DNA of 38,393 bases from Chloroflexota bacterium (GTDB lineage: Bacteria > Chloroflexota > Dehalococcoidia > Lucifugimonadales > Australimonadaceae), in contig VXQP01000016.1 in the NCBI GenBank assembly GCA_009838965.1, positions 1-38,393 on the forward strand, in the 5' to 3' direction. The notes under the pieces were generated by a model that saw nothing but the letters and a program-made list of their open reading frames with translations, made no database searches and had not been told where the DNA came from. The translations under genes were made by a program, and so were the position numbers. Of the stretch, positions 23,250-26,888 are shown one piece after another (position 1 is the stretch's first letter; every line of letters starts with the position of its first letter).

Positions 23250-24357
23250 TCAGTCCTGCTCGCCTTCCACGCTGGAGAGGAGGTAGGCACGCATGAATCC
23301 CTCCAACTCTCCACCGAGGACGAGGTCGGGGTTCGTGGACTCGAAGCCGGTGCGATGGTCCTTGACCATCTTGTACGGGTGGAGCACGTAGCTCCTGATC
23401 TGGCTCCCCCATCCCGCAGATACGTGCTCGCCCTTGAGCGCCGCCCGCTCCTCTGCGCGCCTGCGCATCTCGACCTCCATGAGCCGTGCCCGGAGGATCT
23501 TCATCGCCACTTCGCGGTTCTGGAGCTGCGAGCGCTCGTTCTGGCAGGAGACAACGATGCCGGACGGTATGTGCCGGATGCGAACGGCCGTAGAGTTCTT
23601 CTGCACGTGCTGGCCGCCTGCCCCGCTCGCCTTGAAGACGTCCATCTCGATGTCGTCCGGGTTGATCTGTACTGCCACGTTGTCTTCCGCTTCCGGCAGC
23701 ACCTCTACGAGCGCGAACGACGTATGGCGCGCATGGGCCGCGTCGAACGGGGAGAGGCGCACGAGCCGGTGTACGCCGCGCTCCGCCTTCGCATAGCCAT
23801 ACGCATAATCCCCGGAGATCTCCAGCGTCGCGCTCTTGACGCCTGCCTCCTCCCCGGCGGAGAGGTCCAGCACCTGCGCCTTGAAGCCGCTCTGCGCAGC
23901 CCAGCGCGTGTACATGCGCAGCAGCATCTCGGTCCAGTCCTGCGCGTCCGTGCCGCCTTCACGGGCGTGGATGGCAAGTATCGCGCTGCGGTCGTCGTAC
24001 TCGCCGGAGAGCACCAGCAGCAACTCGCGTTGTTCCGCCTCGGAGAAGATGGCTGCGCTCTCCTCCGCAAGCTCCTCTGCCATCGAAGCATCGTCCGCCT
24101 CGATGGCCATCTCCAGCAGTTCGACGGTGGAGCGGATACGGGACTCGAAGCTGCGCCAGCCGTCGACGGAGGCGCGAAGGCGCGAGAGCCGCTGCATGAT
24201 GGCCTGCGCATGCTCCGGATCGTCCCAGAGACCAGGTTCGGCCGCCTGCTCCTCTAACCGTTCGAGTTCCGATTCCTGGCCGGGGAGGTCAAAGCCGCAC
24301 CATGATGCCGGCGATATGCCCGGCAAGATCGGTGAGGCGCTGTCGAAGTTCTTCCAT
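23250..24357 (-). CDS. prfB: Peptide chain release factor 2, with programmed +1 frameshift
   Basis: RF2 reads UAA and UGA stops and triggers peptide release. The gene begins at the ATG at 24357 (GGGAGG upstream) and encodes 22 residues (MEELRQRLTDLAGHIAGIMVRL) ending at CTT TGA. The in-frame UGA is at 24291-24289. A +1 shift on CTTTGAC continues as DLPGQESELERLEEQ, giving about 368 residues, the normal RF2 length. CTT-TGA-C is the known autoregulatory slip site, and a weak Shine-Dalgarno-like GGTG lies 3 nt upstream of the CTT. The peptidyl-transfer motif GAGGQHVQ and the RF2 codon-recognition tripeptide SPF (RLSPFD) are present. Read without the shift, the gene would be mistaken for one starting MPGISPAS. 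It lies upstream of and divergent from tRNA-Pro. Confidence 0.96.
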
Positions 24358-24469
24358 CAGGTATGCTCCCTCCCGCCAGCCAGCGGATTCACTCGTCATT
24401 CTACCATCCCCGCAAGACCCTCCTGTGATGGACGAGGCGCGGCGGCCTGTGCTACGCTCGCTGCACGGC

Positions 24470-25027: not shown

Positions 25028-25060
25028 AGAGAGGCCGGTTTCTAGTCCACCGGCCTCTCT
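25028..25060. terminator. Strong hairpin between convergent genes
   Basis: AGAGAGGCCGGT and ACCGGCCTCTCT make a perfect 12-bp stem with a 9-nt loop. It lies 28 nt after the nitroreductase-like gene and 40 nt before the end of the HTH gene on the other strand, so it should terminate both. Confidence 0.7.
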
Positions 25061-25099: not shown

Positions 25100-25411
25100 T
25101 CAGGCCGCGAGCGGCATCGTCTGCATCCTGCGGAGCGCTCGGTGCACGGTGCGAACGCTGATTCCGAACCTGCTCGCCACTTCGAAAACGTGCAGGTTCT
25201 CGTACTGGTAGGCCCATGCGATCTCCTCGTCCCGCTCCCGCAGTTTGTAGGCCTGGTACCAGGCAGGGTCATCGAACTTACAGCGCGGGAGAGGGCAGTC
25301 CAGACACGACATCGACGCCTCACAGCCCGTGTCGGTGTAGCGCATCTGCTCCGGCAGCCCGTCCATGACTGGTTCGTCGCGCCTTCGTCCTGACTTCGTG
25401 TATATGCTCAT
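25100..25411 (-). CDS. Small four-cysteine helix-turn-helix protein
   Basis: A 103-residue protein; GGAGG precedes the ATG at 25411. Four cysteines (C30, C36, C39 and C44, in GCEASMSCLDCPLPRCKFDD) could bind zinc or an iron-sulfur cluster. The spacing is reminiscent of, but not identical to, WhiB-type proteins. A C-terminal helix-turn-helix follows (about 76-95: EVASRFGISVRTVHRALRRM). It is probably a DNA-binding regulator. It lies 76 nt after the terminase-like gene, on the same strand and with no terminator between, so it is likely in the same LexA-controlled transcript. Proteins of this wording are, as I recall, common in Chloroflexota genomes and phages, without assigned function. Confidence 0.75.
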   Translation of the reverse strand: MSIYTKSGRRRDEPVMDGLPEQMRYTDTGCEASMSCLDCPLPRCKFDDPAWYQAYKLRERDEEIAWAYQYENLHVFEVASRFGISVRTVHRALRRMQTMPLAA

Positions 25412-25487: not shown

Positions 25488-26798
25488 TCAGGACGCGATA
25501 GCCATGGGGAACGCCATCTGTTGTTCTCCCGCCTGCTCTGCGTCCTCACTTGCGAGCATCGCGATCCCCTCCAGGAATCCTTCGTCCTGTCCCTCCACTG
25601 CAACAGTGAACCCACGCCCTTCGCCGACGCGCAGCACCGCCCACTCCATCTCACGCCGCAGCGCCCGGTACTCCGGGGAACCGTCCGGTGCATAGAAACC
25701 CACTCTTCCCGTGAGCGCTGCCGCGATAACAGCGGACGATTCACGCTCACGCTGCCGCGATGTTTCAGTGAACCACTGCACATGGCCCTGCTGCAGGCTC
25801 CGCTGCAGCAGATCCCTCATTCGGCCGTCATCACGAGATGTGCGCACACGCACGAGCACGCTCTCACATGGCCAGGTCTTCTCCACGAAACGCTTCAGCC
25901 CTGCCACGAGCGTCGCTTCGTCTGCCGCCTCCGCCCATTTATGGTCTAGCACCCGCAATCCACCAGCCGTGCGCGAGGCCACAGAAGCGACTGCTGTCGC
26001 CGGAGAATCGACCATGCCCACTGCTCGTGTCACGACGATAGATGCCACGAGCCTGTCGGCCACGGCGAGCCTTCGAGGTCCACCGGTCCCGAACAGGTCG
26101 CGCAGACGCTCGCGCGGGAACGCCGAGGCGCCTCCGGAGACAGGGCGAAGCGCGTACGCCGTCTCGAACTCCGGGTGCATGTCGCCGAGCCATCCGCGTT
26201 CGGCCTCGACGCGTGTCGCATAGCCCTGTAGTTCCGCTTCCGCACGCTCCAGTGGCACACGGAAGTGTCTCCAATCGCCTCCAGCGGCAGCGGCCTCCTT
26301 GTTGGCGAGTTTCACGTGCTCGAACGGAGTCTCTCCGTTCCACGGACGACCGTAGAGGACGACCGTCGCGCCGGACGCGCCCGCCATCTCCTGCAGGCGC
26401 GCTACTTCCGCAGGACGGAGGAGGTGGGCATCGACGACCTGGATCAGTTCGAATTGCCCACGTACGTGCTCCAGATCATCCGGCGCCGCGTACAGCACCT
26501 GCGCGCGCCCCAACCGTACGCATGCGCTCTCGTCAGACCACAATCCCTTCAGCGAACCTGCTCGCAGGTGACTGACGAGCCGTTGCTTGACGTCCGGTTG
26601 CCCGTCCGGAACGACGCGGAGCAGTGCCCCGCCCGCGTTCAGGTTCACGCTCATCACCAGCATCTCCAGTTGAGAGGCCAGTTCGTTCACTCCTGCACCG
26701 AGCGGCATCTCGACGGTGAACACTGAGCCTTGCTGTTGCAGCACGTCAGACGTGACCGCTGTTGCTATCTCGCGCTGATATGTCGTTGGCGTCTTCAT
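25488..26798 (-). CDS. Degenerate terminase-large-subunit-like protein under LexA-type control
   Basis: A 436-residue protein. The N-terminus (TYQREIATAV, then FTVEMPLGAGVNELASQLE at about 27-45) lines up with phage terminase ATPases of the type E-M-x-R-Q-x-GKNELSAQLE. The Walker A lysine is replaced by valine (GAGVNE), and the Walker B region is IQVVDAHLL instead of VDEAQ. The middle (WLGDMHPEFETAYALRPVSGG, about residues 198-218) matches the terminase segment before the nuclease domain. The C-terminal domain has the order of an RNase H-like nuclease but lacks the expected Asp cluster. Both activities therefore look lost, while the frame is intact, which suggests reuse for a new role. No other phage structural genes are near. 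The start has GGGAG upstream. Family assignment is by memory of motifs and is tentative. Confidence 0.55.
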   Translation of the reverse strand: MKTPTTYQREIATAVTSDVLQQQGSVFTVEMPLGAGVNELASQLEMLVMSVNLNAGGALLRVVPDGQPDVKQRLVSHLRAGSLKGLWSDESACVRLGRAQVLYAAPDDLEHVRGQFELIQVVDAHLLRPAEVARLQEMAGASGATVVLYGRPWNGETPFEHVKLANKEAAAAGGDWRHFRVPLERAEAELQGYATRVEAERGWLGDMHPEFETAYALRPVSGGASAFPRERLRDLFGTGGPRRLAVADRLVASIVVTRAVGMVDSPATAVASVASRTAGGLRVLDHKWAEAADEATLVAGLKRFVEKTWPCESVLVRVRTSRDDGRMRDLLQRSLQQGHVQWFTETSRQRERESSAVIAAALTGRVGFYAPDGSPEYRALRREMEWAVLRVGEGRGFTVAVEGQDEGFLEGIAMLASEDAEQAGEQQMAFPMAIAS

Positions 26799-26814: not shown

Positions 26815-26826
26815 GAACGTATGTAC
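26815..26826. promoter_or_regulatory. Third, imperfect LexA-like box
   Basis: GAACGTATGTAC differs at one position from GAAC-N4-GTTC. It lies just after the predicted transcription start and before the ribosome binding site of the terminase-like gene. It could add to repression or be chance. Confidence 0.35.
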
Positions 26827-26838
26827 TACGCTGCAGGC

Positions 26839-26867
26839 ATACTAGAACGCCTGTTCTGTTCTGTCAA
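26839..26867 (-). promoter_or_regulatory. Consensus sigma-70 promoter of the terminase-like gene
   Basis: On the minus strand TTGACA (26867-26862, six of six) and TAGTAT (26844-26839, five of six) are separated by exactly 17 bp. The transcript would start near 26832 and give a leader of about 34 nt. A LexA box fills most of the spacer, so repression by promoter occlusion is expected. Confidence 0.8.
26845..26856. promoter_or_regulatory. LexA (SOS) box 1
   Basis: GAACGCCTGTTC keeps both GAAC and GTTC arms of the Gram-positive-type LexA operator. It sits inside the -35/-10 spacer of the promoter. Confidence 0.75.
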
Positions 26868-26876
26868 CACCGTTTA

Positions 26877-26888
26877 GAACGCATGTTC
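26877..26888. promoter_or_regulatory. LexA (SOS) box 2
   Basis: GAACGCATGTTC is a perfect fit to GAAC-N4-GTTC, with RNRY-like centre bases. It lies 32 bp from box 1, about three helical turns, on the same face of DNA. It is upstream of the -35 and could also act on the divergent SDR gene. Confidence 0.8.

Follow-up and report, generated by a model that had tools for sequence, protein, structure and literature searches.

The LexA/SOS regulon, the terminase large subunit (TerL) and the gene transfer agents (GTAs) are the closest described systems to the locus analyzed here. The palindrome GAAC-N4-GTTC is the LexA box of the Gram-positive type. The Dehalococcoidia include cultured members; SAR202 bacteria, which abound in deep ocean waters, are difficult to cultivate, and to our knowledge little has been learned about their response to DNA damage. 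In Alphaproteobacteria, LexA has been linked to GTA regulation, by report in R. capsulatus and by prediction in D. shibae (PMC6473078). Caulobacter survives DNA damage with the help of a GTA (PMC9632790). Our literature search, which covered open-access journal papers, returned no GTA paper for Dehalococcoidia, only passing co-mentions with Chloroflexota; thus, the novelty of a GTA link in this class is provisional.

Here we analyze a promoter at positions 26839-26888 of the window, i.e., the whole 38,393-nucleotide stretch under study, which belongs to a Dehalococcoidia genome (G000) of 3.01 Mb in 106 contigs. We propose, with a probability of roughly 0.8, that this is a LexA-repressed promoter of a two-gene unit, encoding a degenerate terminase large subunit (pseudo-TerL) and an HTH protein, and that the unit descended from an SOS-controlled, phage-derived packaging cluster.

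Results

The promoter is of the sigma-70 type and lies on the minus strand (TTGACA-17-TAGTAT, 26867..26839). A promoter scan found it to be the sole sigma-70-like site between 24900 and 27000, and it is kept in the same-genus relatives L006-L010. Read along the minus strand, the order is TTGACA-GAACA-GAACAGGCGTTC-TAGTAT, and the 12 spacer bases next to TAGTAT are LexA box 1, GAACAGGCGTTC (26845..26856), which has the same position in the relatives. Box 2, GAACATGCGTTC (26877..26888, minus strand), is exact and is located 32 bp upstream of box 1, which corresponds to 3.05 turns at 10.5 bp per turn. A third, imperfect box, GTACATACGTTC (26815..26826, minus strand), is located 30 bp downstream of box 1, between the promoter and the start codon of pseudo-TerL at 26798. 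The preliminary description of this DNA had reported one GAAC-N4-GTTC box in the 17 bp spacer, a second perfect box 32 bp away in helical phase and a third imperfect box downstream, and this layout was accurate in coordinates and in sequence. It is kept in 5 same-genus genomes and recurs in further genera of this family as well as in a second family of the order. Box 2 is imperfect in L007 and L009; the third box has one mismatch in the nearest relatives and is missing in L009/L063.

The same description held that the operator set exceeds what chance would give, and this holds for the paired, in-phase placement on one promoter, but hardly for the number of boxes. The 38 kb window contains two exact GAAC-N4-GTTC sites, boxes 1 and 2, compared to a mean of 0.59 in the shuffled window, and at least two sites appeared anywhere in 9 of 100 shuffles; taken alone, this count is weak evidence against chance. 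A pattern search of the genome found 58 exact boxes versus 22 matches to the reversed control pattern, and the expected number of box pairs no more than 50 bp apart in the whole genome is approximately 0.06. An extended motif, RGAACANNCGTTCTA, which was built from this promoter and the promoters of its relatives, has exactly two perfect matches in the genome, both of them at this promoter. On the basis of the pair expectation, the extended-motif matches and the box density in a second family (f2, see below), we reject chance as the origin of the paired boxes.

The genome encodes a single strong LexA with a DNA-binding domain, in which an Ala-Gly cleavage site (AAG) and a Ser/Lys dyad can be read from the sequence. 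The lexA gene has its own box, AGAACGTTCGTTCTA, just downstream of a -10-like hexamer and before the lexA start. A host LexA with a differing motif, a concern raised in the preliminary description, is thus not suggested by the sequence. The comparison with recA and lexA proposed there gave a divided outcome: lexA carries a box, whereas recA has no exact GAAC-N4-GTTC within ~500 bp upstream, and for this reason the LexA regulon of this genome may be unusual. One exact box is present within the recA coding region (L104 / L058, own recA). Another box, GGAACATTAGTTCTA, precedes a radical-SAM gene (L033:1501-1515; G000:C68:46229) whose score for TIGR03916 (putative DNA modification/repair) is lower than the curated cut-off.

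The operator at 26839-26888 matches the motif at the host lexA, overlaps the promoter and is conserved in relatives. Given that the genome encodes a LexA and that lexA carries the same box, LexA control of this promoter is very likely. The strong induction by DNA damage put forward in the preliminary description is still a prediction. If the boxes served another palindrome-binding repressor, of a phage type or the HTH protein itself, the joint travel of the HTH gene and the operator at most loci would be expected; however, the same box occurs at lexA and before the repair radical-SAM gene, and the motif is that of a Gram-positive-type LexA, which makes a repressor other than LexA highly improbable.

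The first gene downstream of the promoter (25488..26798, minus strand; 436 aa) had been described as a gene of unknown function. It can now be identified as a degenerate TerL homologue, followed by an HTH gene. Direct sequence searches of Pfam, PHROGs and PDB with the 436-aa protein produced no matches, and the TerL identity was reached only through intermediate relatives. A profile of six close relatives of this protein detected relatives, many of them full-length (E about 1e-50), in 213 of 393 Dehalococcoidia genomes; pseudo-TerL is homologous to the intact TerL across the ATPase and nuclease domains. The intact relatives contain GGKNE (Walker A), LLEVDEAQD (Walker B) and the RNase H motifs, and are weakly but consistently tied to TerL (Terminase_6C, PHROGs 38, 5909 and 5713). 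In pseudo-TerL, the Walker A motif is changed from GGKNE to GAGVNE (Lys replaced by Val), the Walker B motif from VDEAQ/VDESQ to VDAHL (Glu replaced by Ala), and the RNase H Asp residues are gone (AGIDLAG > ASIVVTR, VVDATG > VRVRTS). The Walker A Lys is missing in all genera examined of the window's family (f1). The AlphaFold model from six sequences is poor (mean pLDDT 44.7), and the fold assignment therefore rests on homology. No relative of pseudo-TerL or of the G342 TerL was found in a pattern search of viral contigs.

The HTH gene (25100..25411, minus strand) begins 76 bp past the pseudo-TerL stop and encodes a Cys-rich protein of 103 aa with a CxxCPLPxC motif; it is a neighbor of TerL or pseudo-TerL in most relatives. 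The HTH protein of G342 is similar to phage late activators (phrog_836, E 1.6e-5). A stable hairpin with a 12-bp stem follows the gene (25028..25060, minus strand; MFE -26.2 kcal/mol, z -4.4). It has no good U tract and is absent from the consensus terminator scan; it is likely to be the end of the transcription unit, but is not a classical U-tract terminator. We infer that pseudo-TerL and HTH are co-transcribed as a two-gene unit; the HTH gene could also have a separate promoter of its own. The surroundings of the operon in f1 are host genes (yqeK, prfB and others), partly common to several genera. The adjoining prfB (release factor 2) has the classical CTT TGA C programmed frameshift site (24280-24358 of the window, minus strand).

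In closer pairs, the dN/dS values are 0.15-0.35 for pseudo-TerL and 0.04-0.12 for the HTH gene (mostly <0.12); values against L009 are higher, up to about 0.5. The strongest selection in the unit is on the HTH gene. The pseudo-TerL reading frame is open in nearly all genomes, and the dN/dS values indicate that it is under purifying selection.

The intact TerL is accompanied by genes for a TerS-like protein, a small TM coiled coil, the HTH protein and a portal (phrog_64, SPP1_portal). Several of these cassette loci also encode a scaffold-like coiled coil, together with a major capsid protein (phrog_212, E about 1e-77). Among the 393 genomes of the class, the portal is found in 184 and the capsid in 170. 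The TerS-TerL-HTH-portal cluster is present in about half of the Dehalococcoidia genomes, usually in a single copy (e.g., L127:3872-10985, L148, L125), and some genomes extend it with scaffold-like, capsid and connector genes. Relatives of the capsid are encoded on at least 248 IMG/VR stretches, mostly 4-16 kb contigs, and some of these may be pieces of host DNA that were entered as viral. The class-wide cluster is a candidate GTA or domesticated prophage.

Intact TerL cassettes of other families are also preceded by the order -35, box, -10. The 1.8-kb regions upstream of TerL, 73 kb in total, contain 17 exact boxes versus 11 in the other 426 kb, a ~9-fold enrichment (binomial p = 3e-8, not an exact probability since the loci are related). 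In about half or more of the sampled intact cassettes, these 1.8 kb contain no exact box, and LexA control of the cluster in its intact form thus appears to be common, but not universal. The TerL distances follow the RecA distances (rho 0.67 for 21 genomes, reached in 0 of 2000 permutations), and a HIT-yqeK neighborhood recurs and adjoins some intact cassettes, too. Together with the partly shared host neighbors, these results tentatively favor vertical descent and domestication of the cluster.

Neither portal nor capsid was detected in G000 or in any f1 genome searched, and on this gene content f1 cannot make particles from the cluster. An intact GTA in the window genome was rejected on the same grounds. 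Depending on the lineage, the TerL remnant has 436-504, 204-217, 222-279 or 175 aa. A sister genus has the 204-217 aa remnant, with a spacer box and an imperfect upstream box 32 bp away. In f2, the dead TerL of 222-279 aa (175 aa in genus g3) is followed by the HTH gene, and the operators mostly consist of two boxes 18-20 bp apart. A box is present within the tested range at 27 of the 30 f2 loci, and 21 loci have two; the 15 kb around the gene hold 50 boxes compared to 4 in 90 kb elsewhere at the same loci, ~75 times the background density. The genomes of g3 (L324, L325) are streamlined (1.3-1.5 Mb), and their 175-aa remnant is under two boxes 18 bp apart. These comparisons indicate that the operator predates the dead enzyme, and point to an order-wide, LexA-controlled pseudo-terminase/regulator operon, which is likely to be what remains of a GTA-like domesticated prophage.

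Such an operon could also be a decaying prophage or GTA remnant that serves no present function, with the operator as a leftover. The loss of the particle genes and of every catalytic residue is consistent with decay, and so is the shrinkage of the protein between lineages, from 436-504 to 175 aa. Conversely, the reading frames are open in nearly all genomes with dN/dS well below 1, and the operator is kept across two families despite the shrinkage. We consider decay unlikely.

Discussion

The LexA-repressed unit proposed here would function as follows. With LexA dimers on two or three boxes in helical phase, the -35/-10 region would be covered and RNA polymerase blocked; following DNA damage, self-cleavage of LexA would allow pseudo-TerL and the HTH regulator to be made. 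A SAR202-type ocean bacterium probably switches on the pseudo-TerL/HTH unit upon DNA damage. The ancestral state would be an SOS-controlled TerS-TerL-HTH-portal cluster with scaffold-like and capsid genes, widespread in Dehalococcoidia, in which the HTH protein may activate the later genes. Families f1 and f2 would have lost the particle genes and the catalytic centers of TerL, whereas selection would have kept the operator, the TerL remnant and the HTH gene, and here the HTH protein would have different targets.

The dead TerL may be a partner of the HTH protein or a decoy of packaging motors. The decoy version, which as to output is a sub-case of the LexA-repressed unit, assumes that the SOS-induced dead terminase joins or competes with TerL or TerS of induced prophages or infecting phages and blocks packaging. 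Both active sites are lost while the TerL N-terminal domain is retained in f1 and f2, and induction of the dead terminase would coincide with prophage induction. However, no intact TerL of the same family as pseudo-TerL was found elsewhere in the same genome, and selection is strongest on the HTH gene; a decoy role is therefore rather doubtful, although worth considering. The most likely output of the LexA-controlled unit is an SOS-induced HTH regulator, with the dead TerL as its partner or as a decoy.

A broader possibility, which we advance tentatively and at somewhat less than even odds, is that the Dehalococcoidia have a class-wide, LexA-controlled GTA, and that the SAR202-like families made its terminase and late regulator a stand-alone damage-response unit, with the terminase catalytically dead. 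If the proposed reading is correct, the SOS output here would be a domesticated packaging protein and a regulator, with no classical repair gene, kept in dozens of genomes. It would also point to a possible LexA-driven GTA in Dehalococcoidia and to a testable connection, beyond the Alphaproteobacteria, of DNA damage with gene transfer.

Compared to the Gram-positive-type LexA/SOS regulon, the locus shares the palindrome, its position in the core promoter and the box at lexA; the differences are that the strongest operator of the genome is on a pseudo-terminase unit and that recA has no exact box. Compared to TerL (Terminase_6C; PHROGs 38, 5909), there is full-length homology via the intact Dehalococcoidia TerL, whereas the Walker A Lys, the Walker B Glu and the RNase H Asp are lost, in a genome family that has no portal and no capsid. 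Compared to the GTAs (RcGTA, CcGTA and the D. shibae GTA), the lineage is another one, the cassette promoter itself contains the LexA box, the window's family has lost the particle genes, and the Dehalococcoidia cluster is a candidate known from its gene content; common to both are phage-derived packaging and capsid genes in a host context and the link to LexA.
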